This document shows, one piece after another, positions 19,409 to 32,665 of a stretch of DNA of 36,033 nucleotides. This DNA is from Actinomycetes bacterium. Its GTDB lineage: Bacteria; Actinomycetota; Actinomycetes; Streptosporangiales; Streptosporangiaceae. The stretch is taken from assembly GCA_021792405.1 (NCBI GenBank), contig JAJYUU010000038.1:1-36033 (forward strand). Direction: 5' to 3'. Made by a program: the position numbers and the translations under genes. The notes under the pieces were generated by a model, which did not search any database, was not told where the DNA came from, and saw nothing but the letters and a program-made list of their open reading frames with translations. How positions within the stretch are numbered: the first letter of the stretch is position 1; every line of letters begins with the position of its first letter.

Positions 19409-21043
19409 CTAGTGCGGGCCGACGAGGGCGCGGAGCATCGCGTTGGTGTCGGCATCGGGCGAATAGATGACGGTGCCGAGCATCCCGCGGGTCAGCAGGA
19501 CTTTGTAGACGTTGCGGACGAGCCGGCCGAACTCGTGATCGCTGACCTTAGCGCGGCTGCGAAAGTCCGGGTCCCTGCTGGCCTCACGGACGGCCCGCCA
19601 GCTGTCGCCGCGCCAGACCAGGTCCGGGCCAATGATGACCCCGTTCCAGTCGTACTCGAAGCCCTGCGCCGTATAGACGCAGCCAACCTGGCCGAATCCG
19701 GCCGGATCGCTCGCCCACAGCGCTGACGGCGGCGCGCCGCCGACGGCCCGGTCACCGCGCAGGTTCCACGGCCGCGACCAGTCGCCGATGACGACGTCGT
19801 TGACGAGCGTGCCGTCCGGGCGCGGGTCACTCCACGGCCAGCAGTAACCGGCCGCCATTCGCGCGCCGTACCCCTTGCCGAGCTCAGCCCGCAGCGCTTG
19901 CTCAAGCTCGCCCGGGCTGTCAGCGACCCGCACGGTGAAGGCAGGATCGCCAGCCCATGGCAGCGGCCCGCCCGGAGTCAGGCCGAGCAGCCGGCTCACC
20001 CACTCCAGGTATGCCTCGCTGCCGCCGCAGCGGAAATAGGCGTTCAGGTCGATCTTCTCGACCGCCAGGCCGAGCGATCGCGCATGGGCCTCGATCTCGC
20101 TCACCGTGCCGAGTTCGCCGGGCCGCACGACCTGATGCTGGTCGAGCAGGAACACCGGCACACGTCCCGCGCAGATCAGCTCGTCGAGCTGCCGCCGGCC
20201 GGTGCGTAGCTGGCGCGGCGTGTACCGGCTCATCGACGTTTCCCGGATCCGGTGTGCTTCGTCCAGGATGAGGACCTCCAGGCCGTTCCGGTCTGCGTCG
20301 ACGAACTGGTTGAAATACTTGAACAGGCTCCTGGTCCGCGGTGAGCCCCGCCCCGTCACCTGCCGCAGCGTCTGGGTGAAGGACCGGGAGCCGGTCGCGT
20401 GCACGACCGTTCGCCCGCGACGCGCAAGCTCGCCGAGAAGGGACAGCGCGATGACGCTCTTGCCGCTGCCCGGGCCACCGGAGACGATGACGACTGTCTT
20501 GGCATCGCCAGCACGCGCCGCCTCGGTCGCGTGCAGCACCAGATTGTAGGCAAGCCGCTGCTGGTCGAGCAGCACGAACTGCTCGCGTTTCCGGATCTCA
20601 TCGGCGGCGACCGCGAGTAGCTGCCGGCCGGGAGCCGTCCGCGAGCTGAGGAACTCATCAGCGTAAGCCGCGCCCGAAACCCCCGGATCCAGGCGGGAAC
20701 GCAGAAAGTCCAGGAACTCACCACGCCGCTGCCCGGTGAACATGCGCCCGTCTGCGGACTCCTGCATCTGGCGGAGTTGCGCCACGCCCATCTCGGTCGC
20801 GTTGTGCAGGTACGCGACCCCGGCGATGACGTCAGGCACCTCCTGGAGCGCGGAGACGAAGTCGCGAAGGTACTCGCAGTATCCACGGACCTGCTCAACC
20901 GGGTGCAGCCTCGGATGGCGGCCTGCCAGGATCGCATCGACCCGGCGGCTGCTCAGCGGCAGCCGCTGCTCCAGCATGACCTCGAACGCAGAGATCCGAA
21001 AGCCCGTCGGGCCGCAATTCGGGACTACCTTACCGAATTCCAT
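19409..21043 (-). CDS. DUF2075 helicase with a gutted N-terminal nuclease domain
   Basis: A 544-residue protein from the ATG at 21041-21043. Residues about 185-540 are a DUF2075 (Schlafen group 3-like) P-loop helicase: Walker A GGPGSGKS at 189-196, Walker B VLILDEAHRI, then CVYTAQGFEYDWNGVIIGPDLVWR and the late NVYKVLLTRG motif. The first 100 residues match the usual N-terminal region of this family (MLEQRLPLSSRRVDAILAGRHP and HPVEQVRGYCEYL). In relatives these two blocks are separated by a PD-(D/E)XK nuclease core with a V-V-E-L-K-Q-W segment; here they are joined directly. The catalytic Glu and Lys are thus absent. The start is uncertain: a GTG at 21119-21121 would add 26 residues, and the open frame reaches 21391. 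Confidence 0.85.
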   Translation of the reverse strand: MEFGKVVPNCGPTGFRISAFEVMLEQRLPLSSRRVDAILAGRHPRLHPVEQVRGYCEYLRDFVSALQEVPDVIAGVAYLHNATEMGVAQLRQMQESADGRMFTGQRRGEFLDFLRSRLDPGVSGAAYADEFLSSRTAPGRQLLAVAADEIRKREQFVLLDQQRLAYNLVLHATEAARAGDAKTVVIVSGGPGSGKSVIALSLLGELARRGRTVVHATGSRSFTQTLRQVTGRGSPRTRSLFKYFNQFVDADRNGLEVLILDEAHRIRETSMSRYTPRQLRTGRRQLDELICAGRVPVFLLDQHQVVRPGELGTVSEIEAHARSLGLAVEKIDLNAYFRCGGSEAYLEWVSRLLGLTPGGPLPWAGDPAFTVRVADSPGELEQALRAELGKGYGARMAAGYCWPWSDPRPDGTLVNDVVIGDWSRPWNLRGDRAVGGAPPSALWASDPAGFGQVGCVYTAQGFEYDWNGVIIGPDLVWRGDSWRAVREASRDPDFRSRAKVSDHEFGRLVRNVYKVLLTRGMLGTVIYSPDADTNAMLRALVGPH

Positions 21044-21255
21044 TCCTGACCGCTGCGGCCGGGAGGCCGAGCCATCAGCCGCTGCTGCGGCCCGCTCAGC
21101 GGTTAGTGCCTTGCGGACCACGCGTCCGGCTGTTCTCCGCGCGTTCCCTGGATAGATCTCGCGCCTTTGCGATAATGCGGAAAATGACCGCACGCTAATG
21201 GACGATTCCGGCCCGAACGGGCCGGACGGGCCAGATGCGGGACGCGGAGGCTCAG

Positions 21256-21759
21256 ATGCACGTGTACGCGGCAGAATGCACCGAGGCGGCGCCGGGCGCA
21301 CGCCCGGCAGACCACGGCACCGGCCACTCGGCAGATTTCGCCAACCGCGGCCGCGACGATCCATTCGTCGTGCTGCCGGCCGAGCAGACACCGCCGGACG
21401 GCATCCAGGTTGCCGAGGGTCTTTGGGGCATGGTGACGGTCGACGGATCGCCAGTCGCGTTCGTGTCGCCCGAAGTTGTCGGCGAACTGGACCCCGGACG
21501 ACGGGTGGGCTGGGTATTCGAGAACCTGGACCGGGCCTACGTCGCGCGGTTCGCTCGCGAGCCGCGAAGGTTCTTCGAAGCCGAACTCGGCTCGCCAGTC
21601 GTCAGCGGGCGGGTGGTCGTCCTCGACCACGACTTTGCGCGGCATTTCGGCGAGCACGTCGCGCTGAGCGACTTCGCCGCTGCTAGATGCCTGTACGGCC
21701 AAATCGTGCCGGCCGGAACTAAGTGCAGTCGATGCAGGTGCGAGCGGGCCACGCGGTGA
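21256..21759 (+). CDS. Hypothetical protein with Cys-rich tail
   Basis: A 167-residue protein of unknown family. The ATG at 21256 is preceded by CGGAGG at a spacing of 5-6, better than the in-frame ATG at 21235. Codon use fits neighbouring genes, supporting a real gene. Visible parts are a variable N-terminus, a beta-prone centre (GLWGMVTVDGSPVAFVSPEVVG), a segment with aromatic and basic residues (VGWVFENLDRAYVARFARE), VVVLDHDFARHFGEHVALSD, and a terminal CSRCRC. The Cys tail could bind a metal. It is divergent from the DUF2075 helicase gene; a GATAAT -10-like box lies at 21171-21176. Function unknown. Confidence 0.6.
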   Translation: MHVYAAECTEAAPGARPADHGTGHSADFANRGRDDPFVVLPAEQTPPDGIQVAEGLWGMVTVDGSPVAFVSPEVVGELDPGRRVGWVFENLDRAYVARFAREPRRFFEAELGSPVVSGRVVVLDHDFARHFGEHVALSDFAAARCLYGQIVPAGTKCSRCRCERATR

Positions 21760-22605: not shown

Positions 22606-22980
22606 AGGCGTCGTCCGTCTGCTCGCCTTCCACCGGCGGCTGCTGGCAGGAACGCGGCTGGATGCCCATGCGGGAGCGATCCACAAAGAGCAGAACTGGA
22701 TTGGCGGCAGCAGCTATAACCCGTGCTCGGCCGCGTTCGTGCCACCGCCGCCCGAGTTTGTGCCTGGCCTCCTCGACGACCTGTGCCAGCGGCAACTGCA
22801 GCAGTCATGGCGGGCACAGCTCGGCTCGGTTCGGGCCAACTCCGCGACGGACGTCCTGCTGCGCCGGCTACCGGGCGCGCCGATCGTGACGGTCTCGTCC
22901 GCAACCGCGCCTTCGAGGCACCTGATGTCATCGAGGCGTTCACCGCGCTGGAGCGCCAGCTTGCCAGCCCGCCGCGATAG
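22606..22980 (+). pseudogene. Fic-family gene, multiply deleted and frameshifted
   Basis: In one frame the sequence reads LLAGTRLDAHAGAIHKEQNW, then IGGSSYNPCSAAFVPPPPEF and VPGLLDDLC, which is the N-terminal region of Fic/DOC-type proteins just before the FIC core. It then jumps in the same frame to LQQSWRAQLGSVRANSATDV and LLRRLPGAPIVTVSSA, which is the C-terminal winged-helix region of the same family. The frame then changes by +1 to RNRAFEAPDVIEAFTALERQ, the usual family end, stopping at 22978-22980. The catalytic HPFxxGNGR core and the N-terminus are missing. The product would have been an AMP-transferase; it is dead here. A TAA at 22603-22605 precedes the readable part. Confidence 0.8.
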
Positions 22981-22990
22981 CGTTGGCCAG

Positions 22991-23266
22991 GTGAGCAGGG
23001 TGCACGACATGGGCGGGCAGACCGGGTTCGGGCCTGTCCCCGTCGAGGATGACGGCCAGTTCTTTCACGCCGACTGGGAAGCCAGGGTCTATGCGATCGT
23101 CCGGGTGCTGCAGCGGCGCGGGGTGATCAACGCCGCGTTCGATGATCTGCGCGACGCTATCGAACGAATCCCGCCAGCGGAGTACCTGACCATGTCCTAC
23201 TACGAGCGCTGGCTGCGGGCGGCAGAGATGTTGCTCGCGGAGCGGAAGCTGCTAGCTGATGACTAA
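22991..23266 (+). CDS. Nitrile hydratase beta subunit, N-terminal half (scnB/toyK-like subunit)
   Basis: A 91-residue protein matching only the N-terminal half of nitrile hydratase beta subunits: VHDMGGQTGFGPV at the start, HADWEARVYAI with the conserved Arg that contacts the metal-site cysteines in known enzymes, then ERIPPAEYLTMSYYERWL. The GTG at 22991 aligns exactly with the family's start (M-x-x-I-H-D-x-GG); ATG at 23009 is less likely because it would remove the conserved VHD. It overlaps the next gene by 8 bases. In thiocyanate hydrolase and toyocamycin nitrile hydratase the beta subunit is likewise encoded as two genes. Together the three products should form a heterotrimer with the metal at the alpha-beta interface. 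Confidence 0.88.
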   Translation: MSRVHDMGGQTGFGPVPVEDDGQFFHADWEARVYAIVRVLQRRGVINAAFDDLRDAIERIPPAEYLTMSYYERWLRAAEMLLAERKLLADD

Positions 23267-23525
23267 GTTCGCCGCTGGCAGCCGGGTGCGAGCCCAGGTG
23301 GCAGATCCTGACGGTCACACCAGGCTGCCGCGGTATGCCCGCGGCCATACCGGCGAGGTCGTCGAAGTCCGGGCGGCCTGGCAGCTGCCGGACGAGGCGG
23401 TGCGTGGCGTGTTCCGTGCCGAGCCGGTCTACGCTGTCCGCTTCAATGCGGCTGAGCTGTGGGGTTCGGGGTCGCACTCAGTCATCCTCGACCTGTGGGA
23501 GTCCTACCTGGAGGAGGCGCCGTGA
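23259..23525 (+). CDS. Nitrile hydratase beta subunit, C-terminal half (scnA/toyL-like subunit)
   Basis: An 88-residue SH3-like barrel corresponding to the C-terminal half of nitrile hydratase beta: FAAGSRVRAQ, then GHTRLPRYARGHTGEV, AEPVYAVRFNAAELWG and the end VILDLWESYLE. All conserved blocks of this domain are present, including the GHTR Arg. The ATG at 23259 lies inside the end of the preceding gene (8-base overlap), and the TGA overlaps the next gene's GTG, so translation of the three is coupled. The gene is a full domain on its own, not a frameshift product: it has its own start and GC-rich codon use, and the first half ends with its own stop after a conserved YYERWL...LL helix. Confidence 0.88.
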   Translation: MTKFAAGSRVRAQVADPDGHTRLPRYARGHTGEVVEVRAAWQLPDEAVRGVFRAEPVYAVRFNAAELWGSGSHSVILDLWESYLEEAP

Positions 23526-24106
23526 GTGGCGAGCATGGTGAGCTTCCCATAGCAGCCAGGGTCCGCAGGCTCGAAGAGCGGCTGATCGCTGCCGGGCTGG
23601 CGACCGACGAGGAACTCGATGAGATCCTCGAACGGGTTTTCACCTCGGCCTCGCCGGTCAACGGCGCCCGGATGGTCGCCCGTTCCTGGAAAGATCCGGA
23701 CTACCGTGATCGCCTGCTGGCCGACGGCAACGCAGCGGCAGCCGAACTAGGCTTCGGCGCCGGCACCCGCGGGTACCTGCTGAAGGCGGTTGAGAACACC
23801 CCGGACGTGCACAACATGATCGTGTGCACGCTCTGCTCGTGCTACCCGACCGCGCTGCTCGGGCCGTCACCAAGCTGGTACAAGAGCTTCGCCTACCGGT
23901 CGCGGGCGGTGCGCGAGCCGCGCGCCGTGCTGGCCGAGTTCGGGCTCGAGCTGCCCGATAGCACCGAGATCCGGGTCTGGGACGCCAACTCCGAGACCCG
24001 CTACCTGGTACTGCCGCTGCGGGCAGAGGGCGCCGACGAGATGGACGAGAGCGAGCTGGCGTCACTGGTCACCAGGAACGGGCTCATCGGCACCGCCATC
24101 CGGTAA
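23522..24106 (+). CDS. Nitrile hydratase alpha subunit / thiocyanate hydrolase gamma subunit-like, cobalt type
   Basis: A 194-residue catalytic subunit. The metal-binding claw VCTLCSC lies at about residues 101-107 (Cys 102, 105, 107), with Thr in the second position as in cobalt enzymes; iron enzymes have Ser there. Other conserved blocks are PDVHNMIVCTLC, SWYKSFAYRSRAVREPR, VLAEFGLELP, EIRVWDANSETRYLVLP and LVTRNGLIG. The enzyme should hydrate a nitrile to an amide, or thiocyanate; the claw cysteines need post-translational oxidation. GTG at 23522 overlaps the preceding TGA, with GGAGG about 7 bases ahead. No activator or cobalt-insertion gene is seen nearby, which is unusual for nitrile hydratases. 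Confidence 0.93.
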   Translation: MSGEHGELPIAARVRRLEERLIAAGLATDEELDEILERVFTSASPVNGARMVARSWKDPDYRDRLLADGNAAAAELGFGAGTRGYLLKAVENTPDVHNMIVCTLCSCYPTALLGPSPSWYKSFAYRSRAVREPRAVLAEFGLELPDSTEIRVWDANSETRYLVLPLRAEGADEMDESELASLVTRNGLIGTAIR

Positions 24107-24144: not shown

Positions 24145-26631
24145 ATGGCAGATGTACCGTTGCGGGGCATGGAAACAGGAGCGGCCGCGAACGCCAGCGT
24201 CGAAGACGTCATCGCCAGCGGGCTGGACGGCGCTGGCCAGCCCGAGTCTGTCTCCGACCTGGTCCTGGCTGCCCTGCTCGGCGAGAGCGAACTGGCCGCG
24301 GTCATCGACGGCACCGCGGCGGCCGTGCCAGCGACGGCCTCAGCCGAGGCGGCCGCCGACCACGTCGCACCGGAGCTGTACCTGCAGGCGATCGCGGTCG
24401 AGGGATTCCGCGGGATCGGTGCCAAGGCCGAGCTGCGACTCCAGCCAGGACCCGGTCTCACCGTCGTGGCCGGCCGCAATGGCTCCGGCAAGTCGAGCTT
24501 CGCCGAGGCTGCCGAGCTGGCCCTGACCGGCGACAATAAGCGCTGGTCAGGTGACCGGAGCGCGGTGTGGCGAGACGGCTGGCGCAACCTGCACACCGCC
24601 GGCCAGACCCGAATCTGCGCCGAGCTGGCCGCTGGGGCGCAACCCGGCGTGATCAAGGTTGTCCGGGAGTGGCCGGCCGGCGCCAGGCTCGACGACGCGA
24701 CGTCCTACCTGCAGGCTCATGGCCAGGCCAGGCAGCCGCTCAGGGCGGCGGGCTGGACGCAACAGCTTGAGCTGTTCCGCCCGTTCCTGTCCTATGCCGA
24801 GCTCGGTGCCCTGCTCAACGGCAGGCCGAGTGAGATGTACGACGCCATCCAGGCCATCCTCGGACTGGACCAGCTAGTCGACGCCGAGAAGCGGCTGGAT
24901 GCCCAGCGCAAGCGGCTCGACGAGGCCAGCAAGGGTGCCGTCCGGACCCTGATTGACCTGCGCACCCGGCTGGCGGGCAGTTCGGACGACCGCGCGCGCC
25001 TGGCCGAGCGCGCGGTGGCTGGCCGGAACTTCGACCTTGACGCTATCGAGTCCCTGGCCGTTGGCGCCGACGACAGTCCCGAGTCAGCAATCAGCCTGCT
25101 GTCGCAGATCGTGGCGATCGAAGTGCCGTCGGCGGATACGGTCGCCACGGCAATCGAGGAGGTCCGGCACGCTGCCGAGCGCGTCGCCAGCCTGGCCGAC
25201 ACCCCGGCTGAGGACGCCCGTCGGCTGGCTGGCCTGCTCGCCGCCGCGCTCGATCACCAGGCCAGTCACCCGGACGAAGCCTGCCCGGTGTGCGGTGGCC
25301 GCGCCCTCGACACCGCGTGGGCGGAGGCGACCCGCGCCGAGATCACGCGGCTGCAGCGGCTGGCTCATGATGCGCAGGAAACGCGCACTGACCTGGCGGC
25401 GGCACTGGCTGCAGTACGCGGACTGACTGGGCCAGTGCCACAGGTCCTGCTGGCGGATCCGGGAAGCGAGGTCGATCCGGCGAGCGCGCGGACGGCCTGG
25501 CAGTCGTGGGCTGAGCTCGCCGGCAGCGGGACGGCCGAGCAGCTAATGGCGACCGGAGCTGACCAGTTTGCCGCCGTCGCAGACTCAGTCGGGGAGCTTC
25601 AGTCTGGCGCGGCGGCAGTGCTGGCTCGCCGCAGCGAGGCGTGGCAACCCGTCGCCGCCGCGCTGGCCGCGTGGGCGGAGCAGGCACGGGCAAGCGAGCG
25701 CGCTGCGGCGAAGCTGGCCGAGGTCAGGCAGGCGATCACCTGGCTCAGGCAGGCCGGCCAGGAGATCCGTGATGCGCGGATGGCGCCGTTCACGCAGATG
25801 TCGGCCGAGGTATGGAGCATGCTCCGGCAGGAGAGCAACGTCGACCTCGGGCCGATCCGCCTCGTCGGCGCCGCGACTTCGCGCAAGCTCAGCCTTGACG
25901 TGACCGTGGACGGTGTGGACGGTGCCGCGCTCAGCGTCATGAGCCAGGGCGAACTGCACGCTCTCGGCCTTGCGCTGTTCCTGCCCCGAGCGACTGCGCA
26001 GGAGAGCCCGTTCCGGTTCATTGTGATTGACGATCCGGTTCAGGCGATGGACCCGGCGAAAGTCGACGGGCTTGCCCGGCTGCTCAGCAGGGTAGCGAGC
26101 GAGCGGCAAGTCGTCGTCTTCACGCACGACGACCGGCTGCCGGAGGCGATCCGGCGCCTCCAGCTTCCCGCGACGATCTGGGAGGTAGTCCGCAGGGAAC
26201 AGTCCGTTGTCGAGCTGACCAAGAGCGAGGATCCGGTCAGCCGCTATCTCGACGACGCGCGTGCCCTGGCTCTTACCACGGAGCTTTCGGAGGATGCCAA
26301 GGGCGTCGTGGTCGCCGGGTTCTGCCGCAGCGCGCTGGAGGCTGCGTGCCAGGCAGCGATCCGGGCCCGGCTGATCGGCCGCGGAGTCCGCCACTCTGAC
26401 GTCGAGCAGGCGCTGACGAAGGCGAGCACCTTGCGCATGCTGATGGCTCTGGCGCTGCTGAAGGATGCCGAGCGCGGCCAGGACGTCGATGGTGAACTGC
26501 GTAAGCGCTTCGGCCAGGCCGGGGTCAATGCGCTCGCTGCGGCCAACGCCGGGACTCACGGTGCGTACCGGGGAGCGCTCAAGGCCCTGGTCAACGATGT
26601 TGAGCGCCTAGCCGGCGGATTGCGCGCATGA
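24145..26631 (+). CDS. SMC/Rad50-like ATPase with zinc hook
   Basis: An 828-residue protein. A unique N-terminal 75 residues precede the ATPase head: Walker A GRNGSGKSS at 110-118, then a helical arm (about 240-560) interrupted by a zinc-hook CPVCGG at 380-385, ABC-type signature MSQGELHALGLA at 599-610, Walker B FRFIVIDDPVQAMD at 623-636 and H-loop VFTHDD at 658-663. The final 125 residues form a separate helical domain ending with NAGTHGAY. The arrangement resembles RloC, Rad50/SbcC and Lamassu LmuB-type ATPases, which sense or tether DNA. The start may be at 24145 or 24169. The stop overlaps the next gene by ATGA, so the pair forms a unit. Likely a defence or DNA-damage sensor; unproven. 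Confidence 0.85.
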   Translation: MADVPLRGMETGAAANASVEDVIASGLDGAGQPESVSDLVLAALLGESELAAVIDGTAAAVPATASAEAAADHVAPELYLQAIAVEGFRGIGAKAELRLQPGPGLTVVAGRNGSGKSSFAEAAELALTGDNKRWSGDRSAVWRDGWRNLHTAGQTRICAELAAGAQPGVIKVVREWPAGARLDDATSYLQAHGQARQPLRAAGWTQQLELFRPFLSYAELGALLNGRPSEMYDAIQAILGLDQLVDAEKRLDAQRKRLDEASKGAVRTLIDLRTRLAGSSDDRARLAERAVAGRNFDLDAIESLAVGADDSPESAISLLSQIVAIEVPSADTVATAIEEVRHAAERVASLADTPAEDARRLAGLLAAALDHQASHPDEACPVCGGRALDTAWAEATRAEITRLQRLAHDAQETRTDLAAALAAVRGLTGPVPQVLLADPGSEVDPASARTAWQSWAELAGSGTAEQLMATGADQFAAVADSVGELQSGAAAVLARRSEAWQPVAAALAAWAEQARASERAAAKLAEVRQAITWLRQAGQEIRDARMAPFTQMSAEVWSMLRQESNVDLGPIRLVGAATSRKLSLDVTVDGVDGAALSVMSQGELHALGLALFLPRATAQESPFRFIVIDDPVQAMDPAKVDGLARLLSRVASERQVVVFTHDDRLPEAIRRLQLPATIWEVVRREQSVVELTKSEDPVSRYLDDARALALTTELSEDAKGVVVAGFCRSALEAACQAAIRARLIGRGVRHSDVEQALTKASTLRMLMALALLKDAERGQDVDGELRKRFGQAGVNALAAANAGTHGAYRGALKALVNDVERLAGGLRA

Positions 26632-27026
26632 CCGCGCAGGATCTCCTCGACGAAGCTCACCGGCTGCTCACCACTGTCGTGCCCGGAACCAGGGGGCGCT
26701 GGCCGCGTGCCTGTGCGTGGCTCATCCGGCTCGCCCTGGAGAAGTCGCTCGACGACTACTGGACCGCCCGCCTGCCCGAAGCCACGTCATGCAGCATGCG
26801 CGCGCAGTTGCTCCTGCTCCCCCGTTACGCCGGAGCCGAGCTGGCCGGGGACGCACGCGACGCCTGGTTCGGCCTGGCCCGCGCGACCCACCAGCACGCG
26901 TACGAGCTGGCACCAACCGCGGCCGAGTTGCGCACCTGGCACGACCTAGTCGCCAAGATCACCAGAGTCCTCCGCGAGAGCCCGGTTCTCAAGAGCGATG
27001 CGGCGAACTCGGTGCCGGCCGGGTGA
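26628..27026 (+). CDS. Small helical, HEPN-like partner of the SMC-like ATPase
   Basis: A 132-residue all-helical protein translated from an ATG overlapping the ATPase gene's stop. I cannot assign a family with certainty. The helix WLIRLALEKSLDDYW followed about 60 residues later by ARATHQHAYELAPTAAEL has the look of HEPN proteins, with R-A-T-H-Q-H fitting the R-x4-H RNase motif, although such short motifs occur by chance. If it is a HEPN RNase, the ATPase may control it as in other two-gene toxin/defence systems. Alternatively it is a structural accessory subunit. It ends 9 bases before the convergent amidohydrolase gene, inside a shared palindrome. Confidence 0.6.
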   Translation: MTAQDLLDEAHRLLTTVVPGTRGRWPRACAWLIRLALEKSLDDYWTARLPEATSCSMRAQLLLLPRYAGAELAGDARDAWFGLARATHQHAYELAPTAAELRTWHDLVAKITRVLRESPVLKSDAANSVPAG

Positions 27027-29566: not shown

Positions 29567-32500
29567 ATGCTCGAGAGGGACTCGCCTTTCCTGGCGATTC
29601 CAGCTTCGGAGTGGCTGGCATCCAACCGCTCTGCATTCGCTATTGCGGACCGTTACCCGGTAAGCCCCGGACATGCCCTTGTTGTGCCTCGCCGACTGAT
29701 CGCAACCTGGTGGGAGGCCACGGGCGACGAGCGCGCTGACATGCTGGCGCTCGTCGACGAGGTGAAGCGGCAGCTAGACGCCCAGCTGCAGCCCGACGGG
29801 TTCAATGTGGGCTTCAACGCAGGCGCAGCGGCCGGGCAGACCGTCGGGCACCTGCACGTGCATGTGATACCGCGCTATAGCGGCGACGTGCCCGACCCTC
29901 GCGGCGGCGTGCGGCACGTCGTCCCTGGTAAGGCCAACTATCTCCAGCCGGGAGCGCGCCCTCGCGGACTGATCGATGGTCAGGGTCGTCTGCTGCGCGA
30001 CGAGCTGCTCAGGTGCCTCCGCGATCCCCGATTCGACCGCGTGGACGTCCTTGTCAGCTTCGTCATGAAGTCCGGGCTCGAACTCGTCCACGGCGGCCTT
30101 GTCGATGCCCTCGACCGCGGCGCGAAGGTCAGGGTGCTGACGACGGACTACCTGACTGTCACCGATGCCGACGCGCTGGCTCGACTGCTGGATTTGGCCG
30201 AGCTCAGGCCTGAGGCCATCGCTACGCGCGTCTTCCACGATCCGGCGACCAGCTTTCACCCCAAGGCATACCTGTTCTCGTCTGGCGACCCGTTGGCCGC
30301 AGAGACGTTCGTGGGCAGCAATAACCTGAGCGCGACGGGAATCGCTGGGGGCATTGAATGGGCGATCGGCGCTGACAATGCGGTGCCACTGCTGACGGCG
30401 TTCGAACGGCTATGGTCCGACGAACGCAGCCGACCGCTGACGCATGAGTTCCTGGCGGACTACCGGGAGCGGTGGCAGCCAGCCGTTCACATCGCCGGTG
30501 TCGTGCCGGAGGCGCCAGCAACTGCGCCGGGCCCGCGTCCTGTGCAGCGGGAAGCACTGACGGCTCTGGAGCAGACGAGGCTCGCCGGCTTCCACGCCGG
30601 CCTGGTCGTCATGGCGACCGGTCTGGGCAAAACCTGGCTGGCCGCGTTCGATTCAGCCCGGCCACAGTTTCGCCGCGCGTTGTTCGTCGCTCACCGCGAG
30701 GAGATACTGCGCCAGTCCCTCGAGGTGTTCCGGCGTGTCCAGCCGGACGCCGACCTCGGCCTGTATTACGGCGGAGAGAAGCAACCCGGCGCCCGGGTGC
30801 TGTTCGCCAGCATTCAGGCGCTCGCCGGGAATCTCGGCCTGTTCAACCGGGACAGGTTCGACTACATCGTGATTGACGAGTTCCATCACGCTGCCGCTCG
30901 CAGCTACCGCCGGGTAATCGACCACTTCCGGCCGGACTTCCTGCTGGGTCTGACTGCGACGCCGAACCGGATGGATGGCGCAGACCTGCTCGCGCTGTGT
31001 TCCGACAACCTGGTATTCGAGTGCCCGCTGACCGACGGCATCGAGCAGGGAGACCTCAGCCCATTCCGTTATTTCGGCATCGCCGACGACGTCGACTACA
31101 CGCCGATCCCCTGGCGAGGCGGCCGGTTCGACACCACCTCGCTGACGAGGGCCGTCGAGACCCAGCAGCGCGCGCAGCATGTCCTAAAGGAGTGGCGAGA
31201 AAGGGGCGGCGGGCGCGCCATCGCCTTCTGCGTCACCGTCACGCATGCGGACTTCATGGCCGAGTTCTTCAGGCGCAACGGCGTGACTGCCGTAGCCGTG
31301 CACAGCGGCCCGACCAGTGCGCCGCGTACCGGATCGATCGAGCAGCTGCGCTCTGGTGACTTGCAGGTCATCTGCACGGTCGACGTGTTCAACGAGGGTC
31401 TCGATGTACCCGAGGTCGAGACGGTCCTGATGCTGCGGCCGACTGAATCTCCGGTCCTGTTCCTTCAGCAGCTTGGCCGCGGCCTTCGGCGCAGTCCCGG
31501 CAAGGCCGCCCTGACAGTCATCGACTTCATCGGCAACCACCGCAGCTACCTCATCAAGCCGCGCACGCTTCTCACACTCGGGACGGGGCAGCAGGCAGGC
31601 ACCGCTAAGGTCCTGCAGGCCATGCGGACCGGCGACTTCGGCCTTCCGCCCGGCTGCTCGGCGACGTATGACGTCGAGCTGGTCAGCATTCTGCGGGCGA
31701 TAACGCGGGTCGGGGCGCGGTCGGCCCTCGAGGACTATTGCCGGTCGTACGCGGACGAGCGCGGCCGCCGGCCCAGTGCAGTCCAGGCCTATCAAGCCGG
31801 CTACAACCCGGCCTCCGCTCGCAGCGAGCACGGGCACTGGTTCGCCTTCCTCGACGCCCTTGGCCTCCTGGACGAGCGCGAACGTGTGGTGACGCGACGC
31901 CACGGCGACGTCCTCGCCGGCTTCGAAAAGGAGGCGATCACCAAGTCCTACAAGCTCGTTACCCTTCAGGCGCTCCTGCAGATGAACGCGCTGCGGACCG
32001 GCACGAGCATCGCTGAGCTCGCGTTCGCCGTCCACCTGCTCGTCCGTGGTGACCCGCGGCTGCAAGCCGACACCCGCTCAGCTGAGATGCCCGATCCCGC
32101 ATCAGCGAGTAACGACTCCTGGCGGGACTACTGGCTGAAGTGGCCGCTGTCCGCCTGGGCAGGCCAGCTGCGAGGTTCCGCCGCCGGCTGGTTCCGCATC
32201 GACGGCCATCGGTTCGTCCCTGCGTTCAGCGTCGGCGCTGATGTCGGCGAAACCTTCGATGCCATGGTGGACGAACTGGTCGACTTCCGGCTCGCCCGTT
32301 ACCTCTTCGCCGAGCGCGGACGGCTGGGCGCGGCCGCCAGGCTGAAAGTCATCCAGGCGCAGGGCCGACCCATCCTCATGCTCGATCGCGAGCACAACCC
32401 ACCGCTGCCAGAAGGCGAGGCTTCGTTTGTCGCCGACGACGTGCTCTACACGGGCAGATTCGTGAAGATCGCGTTGAACGTTGCTCATCAGGGCGGCGAC

Positions 32501-32665
32501 TCGCGCAACGTCCTGCCCGACGTGCTCCGGTCGTGGTTCGGCTCCGACGCGGGCCAGCCCGGGACTGCTCAGTACGTCGAACTGATGCCCGGCCAGCCAC
32601 ACTGGCACATGCGGCCAGCATCACCGGCACCGAGCGGCCGGGATGCGCAGGAGGATGTCGTCTAG
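29567..32665 (+). CDS. HIT-PLD-superfamily II helicase-DUF3427 fusion
   Basis: A 1032-residue four-part protein. Residues 1-110 form a HIT domain with the triad GHLHVHVIP (His 95, 97, 99), a nucleotide hydrolase/transferase fold. Residues about 135-290 form a phospholipase-D-like nuclease with H-x-K (H231, K233) and GSNNLSATG. Residues about 325-660 form a superfamily II helicase: motif I ATGLGKTW at 350-357, DEFHHA at 437-442, TATPNRMDG, and motif VI QQLGRGLRR. The last 350 residues are DUF3427-like. Such fusions occur in bacterial defence islands and are probably nucleic-acid-targeting, but the HIT activity within them is uncharacterised. The start follows GGAGCTGGG. Long, intact and flanked by toxin-antitoxin genes. 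Confidence 0.9.
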   Translation: MLERDSPFLAIPASEWLASNRSAFAIADRYPVSPGHALVVPRRLIATWWEATGDERADMLALVDEVKRQLDAQLQPDGFNVGFNAGAAAGQTVGHLHVHVIPRYSGDVPDPRGGVRHVVPGKANYLQPGARPRGLIDGQGRLLRDELLRCLRDPRFDRVDVLVSFVMKSGLELVHGGLVDALDRGAKVRVLTTDYLTVTDADALARLLDLAELRPEAIATRVFHDPATSFHPKAYLFSSGDPLAAETFVGSNNLSATGIAGGIEWAIGADNAVPLLTAFERLWSDERSRPLTHEFLADYRERWQPAVHIAGVVPEAPATAPGPRPVQREALTALEQTRLAGFHAGLVVMATGLGKTWLAAFDSARPQFRRALFVAHREEILRQSLEVFRRVQPDADLGLYYGGEKQPGARVLFASIQALAGNLGLFNRDRFDYIVIDEFHHAAARSYRRVIDHFRPDFLLGLTATPNRMDGADLLALCSDNLVFECPLTDGIEQGDLSPFRYFGIADDVDYTPIPWRGGRFDTTSLTRAVETQQRAQHVLKEWRERGGGRAIAFCVTVTHADFMAEFFRRNGVTAVAVHSGPTSAPRTGSIEQLRSGDLQVICTVDVFNEGLDVPEVETVLMLRPTESPVLFLQQLGRGLRRSPGKAALTVIDFIGNHRSYLIKPRTLLTLGTGQQAGTAKVLQAMRTGDFGLPPGCSATYDVELVSILRAITRVGARSALEDYCRSYADERGRRPSAVQAYQAGYNPASARSEHGHWFAFLDALGLLDERERVVTRRHGDVLAGFEKEAITKSYKLVTLQALLQMNALRTGTSIAELAFAVHLLVRGDPRLQADTRSAEMPDPASASNDSWRDYWLKWPLSAWAGQLRGSAAGWFRIDGHRFVPAFSVGADVGETFDAMVDELVDFRLARYLFAERGRLGAAARLKVIQAQGRPILMLDREHNPPLPEGEASFVADDVLYTGRFVKIALNVAHQGGDSRNVLPDVLRSWFGSDAGQPGTAQYVELMPGQPHWHMRPASPAPSGRDAQEDVV

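Follow-up and report, generated by a model that had tools for sequence, protein, structure and literature searches.

The question raised by this locus is which enzyme its three overlapping genes encode, and how that enzyme comes by its metal. The window, meaning the whole stretch of 36,033 nucleotides that was analysed, corresponds to contig C6 in the draft genome of a soil-type actinobacterium (G000; 5.39 Mb, 98.4% complete), and this genome has one nitrile hydratase (NHase) alpha gene. A first-pass annotation had described a beta-N half, a beta-C half and an alpha subunit with a VCTLCSC claw, in this order, and the coordinates, frames, lengths and Pfam matches all agreed with that description:

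22723..22977, plus strand: Fic/DOC gene remnant, outside the enzyme; matches the end of the intact Fic gene of same-genus genome G004 in two frames
22991..23266, plus strand: beta-N subunit (AnhD-like); GTG start, 91 aa, PF21006 (NHase_beta_N), E 6.7e-28
23259..23525, plus strand: beta-C subunit (AnhE-like); ATG start, 88 aa, PF02211 (NHase_beta_C), E 1.1e-24
23522..24106, plus strand: cobalt-type (Co-type) alpha subunit; GTG start, 194 aa, PF02979 (NHase_alpha), E 2.6e-75

The beta-N and beta-C genes overlap by 8 bp and the beta-C and alpha genes by 4 bp, and the three probably form one translationally coupled operon. The alpha subunit scored 252.3 bits with PF02979 (cut-off 27.2) and 249.7 bits with TIGR01323, 0.15 bits below the equivalog cut-off of 249.85. 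Its cobalt claw reads V-C-T-L-C-S-C (C102, C105, C107), so that it carries both the alpha domain and the C-[ST]-L-C-S-C claw that define the NHase superfamily, and its top PDB match was a Co-type NHase alpha. Beta-N aligned to residues 1-86 of the Pseudomonas putida Co-type beta chain (3qxe_B), and beta-C to residues 130-219 of the same chain and 141-226 of 7qom_B, indicating that about 40 linker residues are absent. Separate beta-N and beta-C reading frames were also found in other genomes of the genus and family, and the synonymous/nonsynonymous differences between the window and G004 were 9/0, 6/2 and 17/4 for beta-N, beta-C and alpha, respectively; the same split in relatives, together with mostly synonymous change, indicates that the genes are real and under selection and that neither an assembly artefact nor a frameshift produced the split. 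The subunits had been called short, but their computed masses (10.5, 9.8 and 21.3 kDa for beta-N, beta-C and alpha) are normal for the type: those of the Streptomyces canus enzyme ScNHase are 10.41, 11.35 and 21.33 kDa (available text of PMC7329996), and those of toyocamycin NHase 10, 11.4 and 21.2 kDa (PMC8574189).

Gene layouts were scored by script in a pool made of genome-search loci and the best 80 of the 587 stretches confirmed in a contig scan. Among the 171 loci with an alpha match (duplicates included, the scan part being those best 80 of 587), 90 had a split beta in the beta-alpha order with no second beta-N-like gene nearby, six of them thiocyanate hydrolases (SCNases), while 61 had a fused beta with an activator-like gene and seven a fused beta without one; in two of these seven the contig ends just past alpha. 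Three more loci (L057, L073 and L090) combined a split beta with the alpha-beta order and an activator, and could be either frameshifts or real independent splits, and the remaining 10 were without a beta-N or beta-C match. Among the matches listed, split loci occurred in Streptomyces, Lentzea, Umezawaea, Kibdelosporangium, Geodermatophilus, Goekera, Klenkia, Pseudonocardia and Actinomycetospora, as well as in metagenome-assembled genomes (MAGs) of Frankiales, Egibacteraceae, Eremiobacterota and Streptosporangiaceae (L024). The alpha gene is patchily distributed, with matches at E up to 0.001 in 18 of 60 genomes (G000 included, G057 marginal, and some of the loci with a fused beta), in three of the eight other genomes of the window's genus, and, at E up to 1e-40 with split and fused loci pooled, in 67 of 392 Streptomyces genomes. 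At L020 (G037) and L022 (G036) alpha is followed by beta-C, with no beta-N found beside them; L020 is a second alpha of G037, whose sole PF21006 match belongs to its split locus.

The phylogeny that the first-pass annotation had suggested was built from alpha plus both beta halves, as a quick tree of 84 of 172 loci (duplicates, near copies and incomplete loci left out) and a careful tree of 62 rows, for which 22 of the 84 were dropped, including the long rows L018 and L171. The window fell within 40 split rows plus the fused L168 and L170 in the quick tree (42 rows, support 100), and within 32 split rows forming one side of a branch in the careful tree (99/96). It thus belongs to one three-gene split clade, apart from the SCNases and with the rows from toyocamycin-type clusters inside it, and since this clade spans several actinobacterial families, the window gene is not an orphan. 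The two fused rows joined the split clade at 94/84 in the careful tree. Both come from Streptomyces (G428 and G679, each with one PF21006 match), have a fused beta on a long branch adjoining the clade, and would represent either an intermediate or a re-fusion.

That the beta-N, beta-C, alpha order is common to SCNase had been pointed out before, and it was indeed found in six SCNase loci of the order Burkholderiales, all above the TIGR03887 cut-off and all with the same split; on these grounds the window enzyme could itself be read as an SCNase. However, the window scored 176.5 bits with TIGR03887, against a cut-off of 291.45, and the SCNases formed a separate set in both trees, with a support of 99 in the quick tree and, together with L081, L172 and L021, of 100/100 in the careful tree. 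Window residue E58 of beta-N is as in NHases and is N in 6/6 SCNases, alpha H97 is K in 5/6 and alpha W153 is A in 4/6, and the best PDB matches of the window subunits were NHases, with SCNase chains ranking last. Membership of the SCNase family, an option left standing by the first-pass annotation, was rejected on the score, the tree placement and the residues, and we regard it as exceedingly improbable. A shared origin of the split is a separate matter: a constraint placing the SCNase set and every split row in one group cost 4.5 log units (p-AU 0.084), so that two origins are favoured but not proven, and a single one is not rejected. L172 (G515, Streptomyces genus) and L081 (a Rubrobacteraceae MAG) have a split beta and group with the SCNases, as a possible new SCNase-like branch.

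In NHases, cobalt sits in a claw with two oxidised cysteines, and an arginine and a tyrosine of the beta subunit complete the active site. R54 and Y70 of beta-N and R22 of beta-C occupy the columns that we take to be those of the active-site beta Arg/Tyr, and they were kept in all split (40/40) and all fused (35/35) rows; the claw residues C102-C107 of alpha were likewise kept in the 40 split rows. An alpha signature distinguished the split clade, P115 being present in 40/40 and S116 in 39/40 split rows, and in 2/35 and 1/35 fused rows, respectively.

Two studied enzymes could be tied to this clade, ScNHase through primers alone and the toyocamycin enzyme ToyJKL through cluster-embedded homologues alone. 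Four published anhD/anhE primers matched the beta-N and beta-C ends, with at most two mismatches, in two Streptomyces genomes (L029/L150 and L148), and L029 lies in the split clade. A gene for an HPPD-type dioxygenase lies directly before the NHase trio, on the same strand, at seven Streptomyces loci (L026, L027, L028, L155, L156, L157 and L158). Its start is 1.8-2.1 kb before alpha in 7/14 Streptomyces split loci, and it lies about 20 bp from the NHase genes in L157; for the one such gene run against Pfam, the HPPD N-terminal model scored below its cut-off.

As for the toyocamycin type, the toyocamycin/sangivamycin cluster of Streptomyces rimosus is described as encoding a three-subunit NHase with toyJKL (available part of PMC12648386). 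In two Streptomyces genomes, G419 and G431, a clade member was located 6-7 kb from a PTPS gene; Pfam matches in the G431 cluster comprised a radical SAM protein (read as QueE-like), PTPS, PurA-like, PurB-like and HAD proteins and a LuxR-type regulator, and those in the G419 cluster QueC and a phosphoribosyltransferase. This gene set fits the description of a toyocamycin/sangivamycin-type cluster in the available part of PMC12648386. The toyocamycin-type enzyme therefore branches inside a general actinobacterial split clade, a placement that is new within the searches made.

The window enzyme could accordingly be imagined as a cyano-deazapurine hydratase of a nucleoside antibiotic pathway, since the toyocamycin-cluster rows are the nearest side branch to its 10-row subclade (98/72), nearer than the ScNHase-like rows, and their alphas are 64 and 66% identical to the window alpha. 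Yet those two rows share a long branch (0.58 in the careful tree), as if specialised, the three genes lie between a Fic relic and genes of a defence-like kind, and PTPS (PF01242) had no match in G000 or in G004. The earlier statement that a toyocamycin-type gene set is lacking thus held for G000, and a role in this pathway was rejected for want of a PTPS in that genome; we consider it very unlikely.

A Fic relic had been proposed upstream, and this received support from G004, where an intact Fic/DOC gene of 408 aa (L104:7883-9109) lies directly before beta-N. What is left of it in the window is an 85-aa reading frame without a Pfam match of its own, and the gap before beta-N is about 450 bp, against about 1360 bp in G004. 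Downstream of the enzyme (24145-27026) is an SMC/Rad50-like ATPase gene with LmuB/mad3-like PADLOC matches, overlapped by 4 bp by the gene of a 132-aa protein without an assigned function; the pair is a candidate two-gene defence module, also present in G004. The protein encoded at 29567-32665 (1032 aa) combines HIT, PLD-like and SF2 helicase domains, and its residues 156-662 strongly match PADLOC models of type IV methyl-directed restriction. On the minus strand, 19409-21391 encode a Schlafen group 3 (SLFN-g3) helicase-domain protein with weak PDC-S41/Nhi/AbiO matches in PADLOC. The gene neighbours of the enzyme vary beyond the genus, and none common across families, as a clue to the substrate or as a candidate activator, was found among the neighbour clusters listed. 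An aldoxime-nitrile pathway was also rejected, as aldoxime dehydratase (PF13816) had no match in G000; it was found in three of the 39 genomes searched (G063, G068 and G507), and at 5 kb or less from an NHase only in G507, which has a fused beta.

Since PF21006 covers both beta-N and the classical activators, a genome-wide search with this model was used to look for an activator. It yielded a single match in G000, beta-N itself, so that the earlier remark that no activator gene lies nearby also holds genome-wide as far as this model sees, other activator families being outside it. The locus was therefore rejected as a classical two-gene Co-type NHase, which has a single beta chain and an activator gene. 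The count was extended to 60 genomes with a split locus, i.e. G000, 33 others and 26 from Streptomyces (G060, which duplicates G010, was not counted, nor were G080 and G515, which carry L081 and L172 and lie outside the clade); part of them were tree rows (11 of the 26 from Streptomyces), the others being placed on the basis of gene layout and alpha identity. Exactly one PF21006 match was found in 55 of these 60 genomes. Two had none (G005 and G028), their alpha being at a contig edge and the locus cut, and three had extra matches: G075 (4), G078 (5) and G082 (2). In G078 each of two activator-like matches has a fused-type beta match at a distance of about 1 kb, and in G075 one has such a partner while another stands alone on a different contig. 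Among the genomes chosen for a fused enzyme, 9/11 had at least two matches (G081, G083, G084, G085, G507, G708, G557, G657 and G578). The other two, G428 and G679, had one, indicating that activator absence goes beyond split loci.

From the 55/60 genomes with a single match, activator loss looks clade-wide, as far as genome sequences tell, and new within the searches made: in a literature search with most subscription journals outside its reach, no report was found in which ScNHase and toyocamycin NHase are placed in a single clade, or in which activator loss is shown across it. PF21006 is an imperfect detector, as seen in the six SCNase genomes, where a second match lay beside the enzyme in three, each time under the cut-off, and further distant matches occurred in three; a very divergent or unrelated activator could escape it. 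A separate, unlinked protein such as a COG0523/P47K-type GTPase might then mature the enzyme, as in Fe-type NHases, for which the available part of PMC8955678 describes P47K as the activator. The window claw, however, is of the Co type, no neighbour gene recurs across families in the clusters listed, and ScNHase, according to the available text of PMC7329996, is active when its three genes are expressed in Escherichia coli, its apo-enzyme being activated in vitro without an activator. We therefore judge a separate activator to be unlikely.

More is reported on ScNHase in the same available text (PMC7329996). The enzyme of S. canus CGMCC 13662, which accepts acetamiprid as a substrate, is encoded by anhD-anhE-anhA in a genome described as having no activator. 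Its apo-enzyme recovered 36% of holo-enzyme activity with cobalt and DTT, 54% with holo-AnhDA and 12% with holo-AnhEA; an AnhD2A complex is reported, and beta-N (AnhD) is presented as a metal and subunit-swapping chaperone. The suggestion of a possibly new maturation route for the window enzyme was thus mostly not upheld, both the architecture and the activator-free route having been published for this enzyme. The same source states that the alpha subunit of toyocamycin NHase suffices alone (Nelp 2014, as cited there) and that ScNHase differs from it, suggesting that maturation may follow more than one route within the clade; with the toyocamycin-cluster rows on the nearer branch, the window enzyme may differ in detail from the ScNHase route.

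Taken together, the three-gene operon very probably encodes a three-subunit Co-type NHase of the ScNHase/toyocamycin-NHase clade, probably a hexamer of composition (alpha beta-N beta-C)2. By established NHase chemistry, alpha would bind cobalt through its oxidised C-T-L-C-S-C claw, and Arg and Tyr residues from the two beta halves would complete a site that hydrates R-CN to R-CONH2. If ScNHase is a guide, reducing conditions may let cobalt pass straight into alpha, and beta-N as a free subunit, being homologous to the classical activators, may serve as a metal and self-subunit-swapping chaperone, which would make a separate activator unnecessary. A general nitrile-processing enzyme is more likely than one that serves an antibiotic or thiocyanate pathway. 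Tentatively, and with somewhat less than even confidence, we propose that beta fission and activator loss were one linked step in which the freed beta-N took over metallochaperone work, and that the clade kept this state, the toyocamycin enzyme being recruited from it and the window enzyme being self-maturing.

The three-gene layout, odd at first sight, is the norm for a clade of actinobacterial NHases in which two types, ScNHase and toyocamycin NHase, have been studied. With activators almost uniformly absent from this clade, the published idea that beta-N replaces the activator can be tested on many natural homologues, and the clade is a source of small activator-free enzymes for use in nitrile biocatalysis.

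Among known systems, classical two-gene Co-type NHases (P. putida 3qxe, P. thermophila 1ire) share the alpha claw and the beta Arg/Tyr columns with the window enzyme, but their beta is fused through the linker, whereas that of the window is in two chains, and fused loci usually have an adjoining activator-like gene (61/68), which the window lacks. The thiocyanate hydrolase ScnBAC (PDB 2dd4) has the same gene order and a split beta, but falls in the separate tree set, under a TIGR03887 model whose cut-off the window does not reach, and has different conserved letters. ToyJKL likewise has three subunits, with masses near 21, 10 and 11 kDa, and its cluster-embedded homologues lie in the window's clade, although it sits in a toyocamycin cluster and the window genome has no PTPS. 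ScNHase agrees with the window enzyme in gene order, split beta, Co type, lack of an activator and subunit masses within 1.6 kDa, the largest difference being in beta-C (9.8 kDa in the window, 11.35 kDa in ScNHase); its look-alikes, however, belong to a different subclade, made up of Streptomyces rows, the HPPD-type dioxygenase gene being upstream in 7/14 Streptomyces split loci. The window enzyme is a further case of the three-piece, activator-free build already described for Streptomyces enzymes.
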